Below, piece after piece: positions 7,650 to 63,177 of a DNA stretch of 64,000 nucleotides. The stretch spans positions 1 through 64,000 of the forward strand of contig JAJZQH010000004.1 of NCBI GenBank assembly GCA_021810905.1, in the 5' to 3' direction. Position 1 is the stretch's first letter; every line of letters begins with the position of its first letter. The notes under the pieces were generated by a model that did no database searches, was not told the DNA's origin, and saw only the letters and a program-made list of their open reading frames with translations. The stretch comes from a bacterium (GTDB taxonomy: Bacteria > UBA10199 > 2-02-FULL-44-16 > JAAZCA01). The position numbers and the translations under genes were made by a program.

Positions 7650-8175
7650 TGGCGCAGGTCGAACGGCCGCTTCGCCGCGCAAGCGGCGGGGAGGAAAGTC
7701 CGAGCTCCACAGGATGCCATGCTGGATAACGTCCAGGCCCCGGCTATTGTTCGGAGATGACGGGGACGGAAAGTGCCACAGAGAAGAGACCGCCTTGAGG
7801 TTGTCGAGGGGCAAGCCCTTCGATGCGCCGACCTACGGTCGGCTTACTCAGGGCAAGGGTGAAACGGCGAGGTAAGAGCTCACCGCGTTCCCGGCGACGG
7901 GAACGGCACGGAAAACCCCATGGGGAGCAAGGCCAAGCAGTCATCCCGGTGCGCCGCAAGGCGCGCCGCAGGGCGATCCGTCCAATGCAGCTTAAAATGC
8001 GGCGGGATGGCGGGTAGGTTGCTCGAGGTCGTCGGCAACGGCGATCCCAGATTAATGGCCGTTACCTGACTACAGTTAAAAGGGAAATCGAATCGATCAA
8101 CTTTTACCTTTCAACTTAAAACTTTGAACTTTTAACTGTAGTCAGGGACAGAACTCGGCTTACAGGCCTGCGCAT
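7650..8175 (+). ncRNA. rnpB: RNase P RNA, type A, with expanded P19
   Basis: This is the catalytic RNA of RNase P, which matures tRNA 5' ends. The universally conserved GAGGAAAGTCCG (from 7691) and ACAGAACTCGGCTTA (from about 8149) form P4. P1 is GCGCAGGTC (7652) against GGCCTGCGC (8165). P2 is AACGGCC (7662) against GGCCGTT (8057). GGGTGAAACGGCGAGGTAAGAGCTC corresponds to the conserved CR II/III region, described here only by its position around 7857-7885. The RNA is about 525 nt, longer than the usual 350-400. Much of the excess is a 17-bp hairpin between the P2 and P4 3' strands (the P19 site), entered separately. It lies 54 bases after rnhA on the same strand. Confidence 0.96.
8066..8145 (+). 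repeat. Heptamer-repeat hairpin inside RNase P RNA (P19)
   Basis: A perfect 17-base inverted repeat (8066-8082 against 8129-8145) encloses a 46-base loop. The right half reads as successive 7-nt units: CTTTTAC, CTTTCAA, CTTAAAA, CTTTGAA, CTTTTAA, CTGTAGT. Its position between the P2 and P4 3' strands equals helix P19 of other RNase P RNAs. The AT-rich unit composition is unlike the surrounding RNA and suggests a repeat that invaded the gene. Confidence 0.85.
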
Positions 8176-8186
8176 CTCCTTTTTTG

Positions 8187-18740: not shown

Positions 18741-18817
18741 GCAAGCAAGGCCAGCAACGCCAGCAACCTTGTATCTCAAACGTTGCTTGCGTTTCTCGCC
18801 TTGCTTGCGTTGCTTGC
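18741..18817. repeat. Nonamer repeat, inverted pair, upstream of lgt
   Basis: The left part (18741-18767) is three 9-nt units on the minus strand: GTTGCTGGC, GTTGCTGGC, CTTGCTTGC. The right part (18782-18817) is four on the plus strand: GTTGCTTGC, GTTTCTCGC, CTTGCTTGC, GTTGCTTGC. The same units occur in frame inside nth at 29759-29812. Confidence 0.85.
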
Positions 18818-29552: not shown

Positions 29553-30288
29553 TGGAGCCTCGCGTTTTCTGTGGCACAACGTGGTGTTTCAATGCGTACT
29601 TGCAATACGGTGCGATGGGGCACTGCGGGCACTTGGGGGAGCGGGCCGTGCATAGCGTGCGGCCGTGGTGGATCAGCCAGAAGTGCGCGGCGCCGAGCCG
29701 GCGCCTGGGGATGATTTTCTCTAACTGTTCTTCGACGAGGAGCGGTGTTAGTTGTACGTTGCTGGCGTTGCTTGCCTTTCTCGCGTTGCTTGCCTTTCTC
29801 GCGTTGCTGGCTGCCTGCGGTGTTGCCAATCCTATACGGGTTGCGACTCGGAATACGTGCGTATCCACGGGCATGGCCGGTACGCCGAATGACTTGATGA
29901 GCACTACGTTTGCCGTCTTGCGGCCGACCCCTGGCAGCCGCGTCATTTCCTCGCGCGACGCTGGGACCTTTCCGTTGAAATCCTTTTCAATCATCGCAGC
30001 TGTTGCGACGATGTTGCGCGCCTTGGCCTTGTAGAGACCCACGGATTTGATGATGCGCTCCACGTCTGCGAACCGCGCTTTTGCGAGCGCTGCCGAAGAA
30101 GGATATCGGCGAAAGAGCGTCGGCGTCACCACGTCCACCTGCGCGTCGGTCGTCTGCGCGGAGAGGATCGTGGCTATGAGCGTTCGGAATGGATCGCTGC
30201 GATGCGCCCACGGGCGTTCGCCCCTGGGATAGAGTCGCGCGAGCGACTTGAGTATGTGGTCAATTGCAGGAGGAACGCGCATTTTCAT
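29542..30288 (-). CDS. nth: Endonuclease III with an in-frame repeat insertion
   Basis: It is a base-excision-repair glycosylase/AP lyase for oxidised pyrimidines. The helix-hairpin-helix LPGVGRKTA (118-126) contains catalytic Lys123-equivalent, and VDTHVFR has catalytic Asp142. The [4Fe-4S] loop C213-x6-C220-x2-C223-x5-C229 is intact. At 248 residues it is about 35 longer than E. coli Nth. Residues about 159-176 read ASNARKASNARKASNASN, encoded by six 9-nt repeat units, and the C-terminal tail is encoded by a palindrome arm. Its ATG overlaps the stop of the L,D-transpeptidase gene by four bases. Confidence 0.95.
   Translation of the reverse strand: MKMRVPPAIDHILKSLARLYPRGERPWAHRSDPFRTLIATILSAQTTDAQVDVVTPTLFRRYPSSAALAKARFADVERIIKSVGLYKAKARNIVATAAMIEKDFNGKVPASREEMTRLPGVGRKTANVVLIKSFGVPAMPVDTHVFRVATRIGLATPQAASNARKASNARKASNASNVQLTPLLVEEQLEKIIPRRRLGAAHFWLIHHGRTLCTARSPKCPQCPIAPYCKYALKHHVVPQKTRGSRIV
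29759..29812. repeat. Six nonamer repeat units inside nth
   Basis: The units on the plus strand are TTGCTGGCG, TTGCTTGCC, TTTCTCGCG, TTGCTTGCC, TTTCTCGCG, TTGCTGGCT. A 9-nt period keeps the reading frame. The same unit family forms the inverted repeat at 18741-18817. Confidence 0.9.
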
Positions 30289-37154: not shown

Positions 37155-37910
37155 TCAAATCACAGGAATGCGGACCAAAGATCGCCGATCGGAGACAAGA
37201 CAGAACGATAAAATAAGGGCAATTATCACCGAGCTTGAGATGCCCAACTTCCATTCGCCTATTGAAAACGTAACAGCTACGTTGAACAGGGCGATGCTGG
37301 AGTAGAAGGCTGGGTAAAGCCAATTCGTACGTTGGTACGTTGGTACGTTGGTACGATCGTACAAAACCTTGGGAAAGATGTGCCAGGCAAGGACATTGAA
37401 CCCTATGATAGCGAAGGAGACGAGAAACCATCCTGCGAAGTTGGAGAAGGGGACTCCGAAGTACCAGCCCGGATGGACGTAATAGTGGATCTGTCCCAGA
37501 AACCACCGGTCGCCCATTGTTGCTATAGGGTCCACGATTACATCGAGCAGCATCGTCAACAAGGCGCCAAGTGCCGCGGCCTTCAAGCCGGTAGCGCATC
37601 GCTTGCAGAGGATAAACGATGCTGTGACATAGCCTGCGAAGGTGAGGAAGGGGTAGGAGAGCGAATCGAAAAACGGAACTCCCGCAATCATGAGTTCGCC
37701 CTTCATGCTCTCGTAGACGTATTTGTAATCCCCGTACGGAAACCCGTTATTGATCGACGAGACTTCTGAAAGCCATGCGATCGCATAGCCGGATACGAGC
37801 CAGAGCACAGTCTTGCGGATGCCGAAATATCTCCATGCGAGGATGGCGTACGCTGCAAGGAACGCAAACACATAAGGTCTATGGGTGATCGATAAGAAGA
37901 GTTGGTTCAT
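37155..37910 (-). CDS. Carotenoid biosynthesis-type membrane protein (DUF422/CruF-like)
   Basis: The 251-residue protein, from ATG 37910 (a GTG at 37943 is in frame), has seven or eight membrane helices. Family-like motifs are YAIAWLSEVSSINNGFPYGDYKY, FDSLSYPFLTFAGY, DVIVDPIATMGDRWFLG and PGWYFGVPFSNFAGW. The CruF-type members hydrate C50 or myxol carotenoid ends; the substrate here is unknown. Residues about 183-195 (YDRTNVPTYQRTN) come from an 8-nt repeat. It starts five bases after the epimerase stop. Downstream (37028-37154) nothing else is seen apart from the sigma54 promoter of the lipoprotein gene. Confidence 0.82.
   Translation of the reverse strand: MNQLFLSITHRPYVFAFLAAYAILAWRYFGIRKTVLWLVSGYAIAWLSEVSSINNGFPYGDYKYVYESMKGELMIAGVPFFDSLSYPFLTFAGYVTASFILCKRCATGLKAAALGALLTMLLDVIVDPIATMGDRWFLGQIHYYVHPGWYFGVPFSNFAGWFLVSFAIIGFNVLAWHIFPKVLYDRTNVPTYQRTNWLYPAFYSSIALFNVAVTFSIGEWKLGISSSVIIALILSFCLVSDRRSLVRIPVI
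37326..37362. repeat. Octamer repeat inside the carotenoid-type gene
   Basis: Tandem 8-nt units GTACGTTG, GTACGTTG, GTACGTTG, GTACGATC, GTAC lie within the coding frame, between two predicted membrane helices. The same unit occurs in the valS insertion at 61819-61913. Confidence 0.88.
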
Positions 37911-37915
37911 GATCG

Positions 37916-38926
37916 TCAGAAATTGGGATTGTTCAAGTGCCACTCGACTGCACAGCGAACCGTATCGCCCAGCGCACGCGCGGCGAGTCCCAGTTCCCGC
38001 TGCGCCTTTTCACTGTTGAAGAACCACGGATAGCGCACCGTGCGCAGACCGCTTACTGTAACTCCTGGATGGGTGCGGAGAAACGCCGATTTAGCGCAGC
38101 GTGCGGCCGTTATTGCAAGCGCGGTCCGATAACCGAGCTTGATCTTAGGCGCGCGAACTCCGGACGCAATTTCGATCTGCGCAAATAATTCGGAAAGTCT
38201 CACGTTGTGCGCACCCAGGATATACGTCTCTCCTGTCTGACCTCTTGTGAGCGCCGCGACATGTGCTGCGGCGACGTCTCTCGAGTCGATCACGTTTATT
38301 CCAGCGTCATAGTAAACTGGTATCCTTCTATCAAGGAATGTGCGGATCAGAAGTCCCGGTGGCGTTCCGTGGATATCGCCCGGCCCGATTACGGCCGTAG
38401 GACGCAGGATCACCGCAGGCAGCCAGTTCATGATATGGCGCCTGACCGCCTGTTCCGCGAGCAGCTTGCTCCGTTCGTAATGCCCGCGCACCCTGGAGGG
38501 CTCGAGCGGCCGCATCTCGTCCGCAGGCCAGTCAGGCATTGCGGGTCCGTTCACTTCGCATGAGCTGGTGAAGATGAAACGGGAGACGCCTGCTGCCATA
38601 GCGCTGCGGCAGGCGATCTCTGTACCTTCGACGTTGACGGAATAGAGCTCCTCCGCGCGCTTGTGCCAGAGCGAGTTGATAGCCGCGCAGTGAATGATAG
38701 CCGTGCATCCGCTGGCCGCCGCATACATGGCCGCAGCGTCGCGCACGTCGCCCCGGAGTGCGGAAATACCGGCCAGGTCTTCTATATTTGTCGGCGGTTC
38801 ATCAGGCGCGAGAAACGCCCTGACGGCAATTCCTTGGGCCGAGAGTTCGCGGCATATGGCGGAGCCTATCAGGCCTCCGGCCCCGGTGACTAATACTGGG
38901 CCATCGATTGCACGGCGATTGGTCAC
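37916..38926 (-). CDS. NAD-dependent epimerase/dehydratase (extended SDR, HpnA-like)
   Basis: The extended short-chain dehydrogenase has the nucleotide loop TGAGGLIGS near the N-terminus, the IIHCAA strand, a Ser/Thr-rich FTSSCEVNG segment and the catalytic YERSK. GRTAVIGPGD-type and VIDSRDVAAAHVAAL motifs resemble hopanoid- or sugar-associated epimerases. The substrate is unknown. The GTG at 38926 overlaps the stop of the HD-GYP regulator as GTGA, and the carotenoid-type gene follows five bases after its stop. Lipid or terpenoid modification is therefore plausible. Confidence 0.87.
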   Translation of the reverse strand: MTNRRAIDGPVLVTGAGGLIGSAICRELSAQGIAVRAFLAPDEPPTNIEDLAGISALRGDVRDAAAMYAAASGCTAIIHCAAINSLWHKRAEELYSVNVEGTEIACRSAMAAGVSRFIFTSSCEVNGPAMPDWPADEMRPLEPSRVRGHYERSKLLAEQAVRRHIMNWLPAVILRPTAVIGPGDIHGTPPGLLIRTFLDRRIPVYYDAGINVIDSRDVAAAHVAALTRGQTGETYILGAHNVRLSELFAQIEIASGVRAPKIKLGYRTALAITAARCAKSAFLRTHPGVTVSGLRTVRYPWFFNSEKAQRELGLAARALGDTVRCAVEWHLNNPNF

Positions 38927-53713: not shown

Positions 53714-54331
53714 TCATCGCGTTTCGAGCGCTGTGAGGCGGACATCATGGTCATCAAGTCGCTCACCATGGCCGTCGAACTTGTCGGAGAGGCGTTTTTC
53801 CATCTGATGCATTTCTTCCGTAAGCTCCGTACGTACGCCCCGAATTTCTTCCCTGAGTTCCGTGCGTACGCCCTGAATTTCTTCCTTGAGTTCCGTACGT
53901 ACGCCCTGAATTTCTTCCTTGAGTTCCGTACGTACGCCCTGAATTTCTTCCTTGAGTTCCGTACGTACGCCTTGAATTTCTTCCTTGAGTTCCGTACGTA
54001 CGCCCTGAATTTCTTCCTTGAGCTCCGTGCGCACGCCGTCGATCTTCTTATCAAGAGTCTTGATGGCCCTTGTGTTCTCAAGGACCGCGACCTGGGTTAT
54101 TTTCAATTCTGAACGAACGCTGCCTACCTCTTTTCGAACGCCATTGATATCTTTTCGCAGCTCCGAACGAACGCCGTCGATCTCTTTTCGCAACCTGGTC
54201 TCCGAAGCATTCGCAGTGGATTGAACAAAATCCTTGAGATCCTCAAAATACGGGACGAGGTGCTCTCTTGTAAGCGGGGCCGAAGCCTGCGCCTGTTTGC
54301 GTGATAGGGGAGATGATGATGGCCGTTTCAT
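53714..54331 (-). CDS. Coiled-coil protein with 11-residue repeats
   Basis: About 205 residues from ATG 54331 (GAGGG nine bases upstream; ATG 54346 and TTG 54370 are alternatives). The centre consists of tandem GVRTELKEEIQ units (hendecads), flanked by related units (GVRSELRKDIN, GVRKEV). This predicts a long right-handed coiled coil. The N-terminus (SREHLVPYFEDLKDFVQS-like) and C-terminus (LDDHDVRLTALE) resemble small DUF-type coiled-coil proteins and phage-like fibre stalks. Function unknown. Confidence 0.78.
   Translation of the reverse strand: MKRPSSSPLSRKQAQASAPLTREHLVPYFEDLKDFVQSTANASETRLRKEIDGVRSELRKDINGVRKEVGSVRSELKITQVAVLENTRAIKTLDKKIDGVRTELKEEIQGVRTELKEEIQGVRTELKEEIQGVRTELKEEIQGVRTELKEEIQGVRTELREEIRGVRTELTEEMHQMEKRLSDKFDGHGERLDDHDVRLTALETR
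53825..54022. repeat. Six tandem 33-bp repeats in the coiled-coil gene
   Basis: Six near-identical 33-nt units are contiguous with no spacers, each encoding one 11-residue hendecad. Units differ at one to four bases, mostly silent or conservative. Repeat number is likely variable among strains. Confidence 0.95.
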
Positions 54332-60435: not shown

Positions 60436-63177
60436 TCACCCCAGTGCAATCAGCGCGGCCTTGAGTTTGCTTATCTTCTCTTCAGACTCGCGCAGGCGCT
60501 GGCGCTCCTTTTCGACTATATCCGCAGGCGCCCTCGCTATGAAGGATTCGTTCCCGAGTTTTCGCGAGGTCGCCTCGATCTCGCCGGCCGCCCTCGTGAT
60601 CTCCTTCTCAAGGCGCGCGCGCTCCGCATCCACGTCGATGAGTCCTGCGAGCGGAATGACCGTGATCTGGTTCGCGGTCACGTTGGTGGCGACTTCCTTC
60701 ATCTCGCTGAGCTCTGACTTGAGCTTTGCTTCGAAAGAATCGACTCTCGCCAGATGCTCGACATAATTTCCGGACGCGATGGCGGCGAGGACGGTCTCGG
60801 AGTCGTTGAATCCGGAGATCGCATTCGGGATGCGCTTTCCCGGGGGCACGTTGCTCTCGCCGCGTATGTTGCGGATCGCTTCCACCGGTTCCTTGATCGT
60901 GATCTCAAAAATATTCGCATCTTCCGCGAATGGAATCGCCGCGGCTTCGGGATATTTCGAGGCGATGAGCATCCCCGCTTTCGGCATGAGGTGATTCCAT
61001 ATCTCCTCGGTGATGAACGGCAGGAACGGGTGCAAAAGCTTAAGGATCGAGGCGAGCACGTGCTTGAGCGTATGCTGTGTGGCGGCGCGTGATGTTTCGT
61101 TCTGTTTGTCGTTGAGGTGGAGTTTCGCCGCCTCCAGGTACCAGTCGCAGAATTCGTTCCACACGAACTGGTAGAGAGTCTGGGCTGCCACGCTGAACTT
61201 GAAATCTGAGAGCGCCGCGCGCACTTCGCTAGTTGTCTGCGCGAGGCGGTTTAATATCCATTTGTCCGCAGGATTCAGATCTTCCTGAGAAGGCGCTGCT
61301 AAGGATGCGTCTTCAAGATTCATCATCGCAAAGCGCGCCGCGTTCCAGAGTTTGTTGCAGAAATTGCGGCCCATCTCGAATTTGGATTCGCTGAGCTTGA
61401 GATCCTGTCCTTCGGTGGAGAGCACCACGAGCGAGAAGCGCATGGCGTCGGCGCCGTATTTGTCGATGATGTCGATCGGGTCTATTCCGTTGCCGAGCGA
61501 CTTGCTCATCTTGCGGCCCTGCTCGTCGAGAATCGTGCCGTGGATATAGACGTCGGAGAACGGCGCCTTGCCCATCATCTTGAGCCCCATCATCACCATG
61601 CGCGCGACCCAGAAGTAGATGATGCCGCGGTCGGTGACGAGCGTGCTCGTAGGGTAGTAGTGCGCGAGCGTCTCGGTCTTCTCAGGCCAGCCGAGCGTGG
61701 AGAATGGCCAGAGCGCGGACGAGAACCACGTGTCGAGCACGTCCTCGTCCTGCGTAAGCTCAGTGCCTCCGCAGTGCGGACACTTGCTCGGGGATTCGCG
61801 GGCAACAATCGGCGGACAAGTAGTACGTTGGTACTTTGGTCCGTTAGTACTTTGGTCTGCGGTGTTTGAATCTGTACCATCGTACGAACGTACCAACGTA
61901 CTAACGTACGACTGGCAATACCAAACTGGTATCCTGTGCCCCCACCATATCTGGCGCGAGATGCACCAGTCGCGCGCGTTCTCCAGCCACTGCATGTAGA
62001 ACTGAGTCCAGCGTTCGGGGTGGAATTTTACCTTTCCCTCTTCAGTGGCGCGGATCGCCTTCTCTGCGAGTGGACGCATGCGCACGAACCACTGGTCCGA
62101 TAGCCACGGCTCGATGGTGGTGTGGCAGCGGTAGCAGTGGCCCACGGCGTGCTGGTGTTCCTCCACCTTATCCAGCAGCCCGGCGGCAGTGAGCGCCTCC
62201 ACGATCTTCTCGCGGCACGCCTCGCGCGTGAGGCCCGCATAAGTCGCTCCAGCTTCCTCGCTCATCGTGGCATCCTCGCTCATCACGTTGATGCGCGGGA
62301 GGTTGTGTCGCTCGCCGATCTGAAAATCGTTCGGGTCGTGGGCGGGCGTCACCTTCACGCAGCCGGTGCCGAATGTGGAGTCGACAAAATCATCCGCAAC
62401 GATCGGGATCTGACGGCCTGTTTCCGGCAGCTGCACCATCTTGCCGATGAGATGCGAGTAGCGCTCGTCCTTCGGGTTCACAGCGACTGCGGTATCGCCG
62501 AGCAGCGTTTCCGGCCGGGTGGTGGCCACGGTGACGTGGCCCGAGCCGTCGGCAAAGGGATACCGGATGTGCCAGAGGTTTCCCTTTTCGTCCTTGTGAT
62601 CCACCTCGTCGTCCGCGAGCGCGGTGCGGCAGCGCGGGCACCAGTTCACGATATACTTGCCGCGGTAGATGAGCCCCTCGTCGTAGAGACGTACGAAGCA
62701 CTCGCGTACCGCGGCGGAGAGGCCTTCGTCGAGCGTGAAGCGCGATCGCTCCCAGTCGCAGGAGGCGCCGAGAGCGCGGAGCTGCAAGAGGATCCGGTCG
62801 CCGTATTCCTCGCGCCACTTCCAGATGCGCTGGATGAGCGCCTCGCGGCCGATCTCCTGGCGGCGCTTGCCTTCCTTCTTGAGCAGCTCGCGCTCGACCA
62901 CGTTCTGGGTGGCAATGCCCGCGTGATCCGTGCCGGGCTGCCACAGCGCCGCAAGCCCCTCCATCCGCTTCCAGCGGATGAGAATGTCCTGCAGGGTGTT
63001 GTTGAGCGCGTGCCCCATGTGCAGGGCGCCGGTGACGTTCGGCGGAGGAATGACGATGCAATAAGTCGGGGCGCTGGGGGAGTCGGGGACATGGAAATGC
63101 CCGCCCTTTTCCCAGACGGAGTACCACTTCGATTCCACGGCCTTGCTGTCGTAAGTCTTGGCGAGTTCTTCCTGCAT
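60436..63177 (-). CDS. valS: Valyl-tRNA synthetase with an in-frame repeat insertion
   Basis: This class I synthetase charges tRNA-Val. PPNVTGALHMGHALN (HIGH motif HMGH), editing domain TTRPETLLGDTAVAV, GRKMSKSLGNGIDP (KMSKS) and a C-terminal coiled-coil arm are all present; total 913 residues. Between WYCQ and CPPIVARESPSKCPHCGG, in the zinc-binding segment that precedes DEDVLDTWFSSALWPFSTLG, about 34 extra residues (about 421-453) are encoded by an inverted octamer repeat at 61819-61913. The frame is kept. A GAGAGGAAA site precedes the ATG. nadC follows. Confidence 0.96.
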   Translation of the reverse strand: MQEELAKTYDSKAVESKWYSVWEKGGHFHVPDSPSAPTYCIVIPPPNVTGALHMGHALNNTLQDILIRWKRMEGLAALWQPGTDHAGIATQNVVERELLKKEGKRRQEIGREALIQRIWKWREEYGDRILLQLRALGASCDWERSRFTLDEGLSAAVRECFVRLYDEGLIYRGKYIVNWCPRCRTALADDEVDHKDEKGNLWHIRYPFADGSGHVTVATTRPETLLGDTAVAVNPKDERYSHLIGKMVQLPETGRQIPIVADDFVDSTFGTGCVKVTPAHDPNDFQIGERHNLPRINVMSEDATMSEEAGATYAGLTREACREKIVEALTAAGLLDKVEEHQHAVGHCYRCHTTIEPWLSDQWFVRMRPLAEKAIRATEEGKVKFHPERWTQFYMQWLENARDWCISRQIWWGHRIPVWYCQSYVSTLVRSYDGTDSNTADQSTNGPKYQRTTCPPIVARESPSKCPHCGGTELTQDEDVLDTWFSSALWPFSTLGWPEKTETLAHYYPTSTLVTDRGIIYFWVARMVMMGLKMMGKAPFSDVYIHGTILDEQGRKMSKSLGNGIDPIDIIDKYGADAMRFSLVVLSTEGQDLKLSESKFEMGRNFCNKLWNAARFAMMNLEDASLAAPSQEDLNPADKWILNRLAQTTSEVRAALSDFKFSVAAQTLYQFVWNEFCDWYLEAAKLHLNDKQNETSRAATQHTLKHVLASILKLLHPFLPFITEEIWNHLMPKAGMLIASKYPEAAAIPFAEDANIFEITIKEPVEAIRNIRGESNVPPGKRIPNAISGFNDSETVLAAIASGNYVEHLARVDSFEAKLKSELSEMKEVATNVTANQITVIPLAGLIDVDAERARLEKEITRAAGEIEATSRKLGNESFIARAPADIVEKERQRLRESEEKISKLKAALIALG
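61819..61913. repeat. Inverted octamer repeat inside valS
   Basis: Arms 61819-61856 and 61876-61913 (38 bases) match at about 31 positions with a 19-base loop. Units are GTACGTTG-like (GTACGTTG, GTACTTTG, GTCCGTTA, GTACTTTG). Related units occur at 37326-37362. Confidence 0.88.

Follow-up and report, generated by a model that had tools for sequence, protein, structure and literature searches.

A dispersed non-coding hairpin at helix P19 of a bacterial RNase P RNA, probably a mobile element related to the IVS/S23 class

The window, a 64,000-nucleotide stretch of bacterial DNA, contains rnpB, the gene for RNase P RNA, which is present once in the 2.98 Mb genome (21 contigs; completeness 99.5%, contamination 0.9%). 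A full covariance-model match and a conserved core place the RNA in class A (RF00010). A hairpin is inserted after the 3′ strand of P2 and ahead of that of P4, in the following arrangement:

7651–8178, plus strand: rnpB, bacterial class A RNase P RNA (RF00010, 266.7 bits, E 6.8e-86; model positions 1–367, the full length)
8057–8063, plus strand: 3′ strand of helix P2, the 5′ border of the insertion (covariance alignment)
8065–8146, plus strand: inserted hairpin element at the P19 position, 82 nt, matching a dispersed family in the minus orientation
8065–8082, plus strand: left arm CCTGACTACAGTTAAAAG, the terminal inverted repeat of the family (fold)
8099–8137, plus strand: tandem 7-nt units, AACTTTT/TTTNAAC (Tandem Repeats Finder, period 7, 5.6 copies)
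8129–8146, plus strand: right arm CTTTTAACTGTAGTCAGG, the perfect complement of the left arm (fold)
8148–8162, plus strand: 3′ strand of P4 with CR-V (ACAGAACTCGGCTTA), intact (covariance alignment)

Folding with an RNase P covariance model, a check proposed in a preliminary description of the sequence, found rnpB otherwise intact with the insert at P19; the location of the element and the integrity of the core are thus established. P1, P2, and P4 had been described as perfectly paired, and this held for P2 and P4 but not for P1, whose outer end contains one non-standard pair. The hairpin itself was perfect, as claimed, but its stem extends over 18 bp by folding (8065–8082 with 8129–8146) and not 17. 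Its minimum free energy is −28.7 kcal/mol compared to −11.9 ± 2.8 kcal/mol for shuffled sequences (z = −6), and 0/200 shuffles were equally stable. The 7-nt units noted across the loop and right arm were recovered by Tandem Repeats Finder, which also gave a period-14 row at 8097–8137; the unit is indeed a heptamer, but its motif is better given as TTTNAAC/GTTNAAA than as the original "CTTT-A-type." Fewer units occupy the left arm, so slippage or deletion has probably altered the array since insertion.

The P19 segment, measured from the AGAnnAATG motif through the end of P4, was compared among relatives. In 48 outside relatives (other genomes, labelled mostly Deltaproteobacteria or Nitrospirae), P19 is absent or short and mostly GC-rich, and the segment measures 33–66 nt; the 114-nt segment of the window rnpB is nearly twice the longest of these. 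The class was sampled with 46 genomes, and the genomes compared all lie outside the genus of the window. P19 sequence varies among the class genomes examined and is unconserved even inside the family. The window P19 sequence was not found in any relative compared (the 48 outside relatives and the class genomes examined); its conservation in distant relatives, which the preliminary description had named as refuting, was not observed. This established absence agrees with the earlier account of an inserted, AT-rich heptamer hairpin; judged from the sequences, the P19 hairpin is not ancestral.

A genome search with the P19 insert revealed related sites elsewhere, giving approximately eight family hairpins when rnpB is counted:

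C2:143482, C2:231629, C2:248434, C2:248892, C2:249078, C4:117830 (weaker, E 0.09), C12:110862, and rnpB: members of the hairpin family

Weak heptamer sites at C9 and C12:178 (E > 0.2) were left out of this count. What the family sites share is the end TGACTNCAGTTAAAAG, a centre free of repeats, and arms that carry GTTNAAA heptamers. The end TGACTNCAGTTAAAAG of the rnpB left arm recurs at C2:248892 and C12:110862, and the rnpB copy, in the minus orientation, aligns over its full length with C2:248886, including the centre GAAATCG..GAAT and the end GAAGTCAGG/GTAGTCAGG. This alignment scored 57 against a shuffle maximum of 32, and 0/500 dinucleotide shuffles scored as high as the alignment to any one of six copies, with the qualification that heptamers this rich in A and T can make copies look more similar than they are. 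A covariance model (R1) was built from four family copies with the rnpB copy held out. R1 recovered rnpB in the window at 8053–8145 on the minus strand (E 2e-5) and 8066–8144 on the plus strand (E 2.1e-4) in a 126-kb search, and again genome-wide (E 4.8e-4), the E-values of the model being rough throughout; it also added the copy at C2:143482–143559, which makes up the whole spacer between two tRNA genes. The held-out match, together with the common ends and centre, places the rnpB copy in the GTTNAAA hairpin family and establishes the relationship. The preliminary description of a short-period repeat invading P19 was therefore correct in recognizing a repeat insert but too narrow, since the rnpB hairpin belongs, as one copy among several, to a defined family of hairpins dispersed in the genome. 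Its stem is the most perfect of the family (18 bp vs. 6–12 bp), which fits either recent insertion or selection for RNA pairing. The family heptamer also fits the GTTRRRY of integron attC sites.

Five of the eight copies are located within 50 nt of a tRNA gene, all among the seven copies outside rnpB and in or beside tRNA-gene spacers. A post hoc binomial test gave P ~6e-12 over the whole genome, or 3e-8 with an assumed 10% intergenic DNA open. Three of the tRNA-adjacent copies fall within one tRNA-tuf operon, and a tuf 5′ region is common to C2:231629 and C2:248434; for both reasons, the count obtained after merging clustered sites (3/6 near tRNA genes vs. 0.015 expected) is the safer one. 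One hairpin family is present both in RNase P RNA and in the spacers of tRNA operons, which RNase P processes.

Comparison with rnpB of relatives, also suggested at the outset, confirmed the absence of the window insert and uncovered a phenomenon wider than first described, involving other palindromes and an S23-coding insert. Within the class, other palindromes occur in P3, P12, P16/17, and P19. In G002, from the same family, the palindrome CCGAGCACTCAA...TTGAGTGCTCGG lies in P12 and P19, and portions of it occur in P3 and P16/17; the genome holds 16 half-sites, four of them in rnpB, and at the sites elsewhere the outer 12 nt are identical and the inner stems similar. The inserts of ~120 nt in P12 and P19 of G043 are nearly alike and are longer than those of G002, with similar ends. 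Hairpins of the CCGCCACT type are found in several rnpB helices of G001, G004, and G040. P12 of G006, from the same order (L020, G006:C27), is established to contain a 427-nt insert encoding a 118-aa 23S rRNA intervening-sequence (S23) protein (PF05635, E 1.5e-32; the protein also matches bAvd, below cut-off), and the ORF is flanked by complementary heptamer arms. Outside the class, P12 of the single-contig genome G180 (L253, G180:C1) has a ~200-nt insert with inverted heptamer arms (0/1000 shuffles); a long ORF was not found in this insert. The best explanation for these data is repeated insertion, in this clade, of intervening-sequence (IVS/S23-type) elements and of other palindromes into peripheral helices of RNase P RNA. 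The palindromes GAGCTTGT/GACAAGCTC and CCCTGAG..TCGAAGGG, which may be REP elements, lie in P3 and P12 of rnpB in an unrelated genome (L254, G289:C1).

S23 loci in the class were examined for arms of this type, scored as an upstream vs. downstream inverted match above the 99th percentile of swapped pairs. Inverted-repeat arms, mostly of period 7 or 8, were found at 18 of 26 loci and at 0/104 control placements. The S23 element in the genome of the window (C2:1938–2252) has GTACGTTN octamer arms, and none of the S23 genes seen in that genome is accompanied by the GTTNAAA motif. Matches to the GTACGTTN motif are scattered through the genome (314 vs. 1 for the reversed pattern), and the motif often forms ORF-less hairpins of 80–156 nt, with a palindrome in 14/14 sampled regions. 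Such hairpins are found in frame in tgt-like and coaBC-like genes (L223, L224; G000:C20; named from sequence) and, in the window at 61820–61915, in valS (valyl-tRNA synthetase; minus-strand gene 60436–63177), where the octamer insert gives ~24 extra residues after WYC relative to 1gax. The octamer array GTACGTTG at 37325–37362 lies in frame in a carotenoid-biosynthesis-like protein (RTNVPTYQRTN; minus-strand ORF 37155–37943). The possibility that the octamer and P19 hairpins form a single family was considered and rejected, since both unit length and sequence differ. An initial assignment of the P19 units to the same kind of repeat found elsewhere in the window was not upheld in this respect, because the GTACGTTN repeats, although alike in architecture, belong to another motif family. 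The GTACGTTN repeat-arm motif occurs with and without an S23 gene in one genome; this supports, but does not prove, assigning the rnpB hairpin to the IVS/S23 class as a member without an ORF. Because the S23 element of the genome has GTACGTTN arms, the link between the P19 hairpin and S23 elements is one of shared architecture. Divergent S23-like gene pairs separated by a short palindrome were observed at L114 and L122 (the genome of the window and G004). The window further contains short-period arrays (AGCAACGCC/CGTTGCTTG) at 18744–18817 (inverted) and 29757–29808, and a 33-nt tandem repeat (6.9 copies) at 53811–54037.

The preferred reading, with a probability of roughly 0.7, is that a small non-coding mobile hairpin, one of the approximately eight related copies and comparable to an IVS/S23 element lacking an ORF, inserted at the tip of P19 and was tolerated. 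In architecture, elements of the IVS/S23 class have inverted arms of 7–8-nt repeats, and an S23 four-helix-bundle gene may or may not lie between the arms. The hairpin would have arrived as a DNA unit bounded by the terminal inverted repeats, with arms of family heptamers, and would be transcribed along with the RNase P RNA. The palindrome is predicted to fold back as an extended P19 that leaves the core unchanged, and the RNase P RNA presumably works despite it. Survival of the hairpin is attributed to the peripheral position of P19 between P2 and P4 and to the self-folding of the palindrome. By analogy with rRNA IVS, the hairpin may be cut by RNase III; it would be either kept or nicked without loss of function.

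Cleavage is central to a different explanation, in which the hairpin is kept as a functional processing signal and RNase III generates a two-piece RNase P RNA, as happens with rRNA IVS. The perfection of the rnpB stem and the S23-coding insert in P12 of G006 lend this some weight, as do the 23S rRNA IVS with complementary ends that RNase III excises with no religation (PMC4990558). Perfect pairing would also follow from recent insertion, and retention for processing is considered unlikely, if far from negligible. A stem of 18 bp is short for an RNase III site. Growth in place, by which an ancestral P19 hairpin gained heptamers through replication slippage and without transposition, in the manner of a microsatellite or the cyanobacterial STRR repeats, would account for the tandem units in the loop and right arm and is in keeping with the probable alteration of the array since insertion. 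It is nevertheless improbable, given that the non-repeat centre and outer ends are common to the tRNA-spacer copies and that the held-out model recovers the rnpB copy.

The remaining alternatives invoke no mobile element in P19. P19 is a recognized variable helix, and the short, mostly GC-rich versions in many relatives might suggest a vertically inherited structural helix under selection. The window sequence is instead AT-rich, in a segment exceeding all those of the outside relatives, is unconserved even within the family, and has copies elsewhere in the genome; the P19 comparison and the genome-wide model search already disfavour inheritance, which is very improbable. Misassembly of a metagenome-derived genome split into 21 contigs could in principle create an insert, but the single rnpB with its full-length model match, the position of the insertion exactly where it is tolerated, and the completeness and contamination values make such an error scarcely credible.

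S23-coding and ORF-less hairpins in RNase P RNA extend the range of the little-understood IVS beyond rRNA to another essential ribozyme. The rnpB inserts of the clade, found in P3, P12, P16/17, and P19, amount to a natural insertion scan of these helices. Most S23 genes of the class are flanked by inverted heptamer arms, which suggest the identity of the mobile unit and could help explain IVS movement; the concentration of one family in RNase P RNA and beside tRNA genes lends itself to direct testing. A broader and quite speculative proposal is that IVS/S23-type hairpins with inverted heptamer arms regularly land in RNase P RNA across phyla and that some are excised by RNase III, leaving a fragmented, active RNA; in the genome of the window, the hairpins in rnpB and in tRNA-operon spacers could pair in trans or be co-processed.

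Large helix extensions are described for RNase P RNAs of candidate phyla bacteria, with no cause given in the available text of the report (PMC8172020). Rickettsia palindromic elements (RPE) and MITEs are short dispersed palindromes within genes (PMC10969869, PMC3733652), as are the octamer hairpins in the valS-, tgt-, and coaBC-like genes here, and the window element shares with MITEs its terminal inverted repeats and multiple dispersed ORF-less copies. The arms of the window element differ from RPE and MITEs in consisting of tandem 7–8-nt units. RNase P is not mentioned in the accessible portions of those two papers on RPE, MITEs, and REP elements, and a literature search on Rickettsia that paired palindromic elements with RNase P RNA returned nothing. 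The palindromes in rnpB helices of G002, G043, G001, G004, and G040, dispersed genome-wide in G002, resemble REP elements, from which the window element is distinguished by its heptamer arms. IVS in 16S and 23S rRNA, such as those of Coxiella burnetii, are removed by RNase III without religation (PMC4990558) and, like the 18-bp P19 hairpin, have complementary ends at the tip of a peripheral helix in a structural RNA; the S23 protein encoded in G006 rnpB is a further likeness. The known hosts are rRNA genes, whereas the host here is RNase P RNA. The window copy, too short at 82 nt, has no S23 ORF, but only some IVS encode S23. The literature searched, which misses most subscription papers, contained no case of an RNase P RNA with an S23-coding insert. 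The closest precedent is the STRR heptanucleotide repeats in rnpB of heterocyst-forming cyanobacteria (Vioque 1997, NAR 25:3471; cited in PMC2858038). Both cases involve short tandem 7-nt repeats inside rnpB (period 7, 5.6 copies in the window). In contrast to STRR, the window repeats form the arms of a palindromic dispersed element in P19 with common ends and centre, and other members of its clade carry palindromes or an S23 ORF in rnpB.
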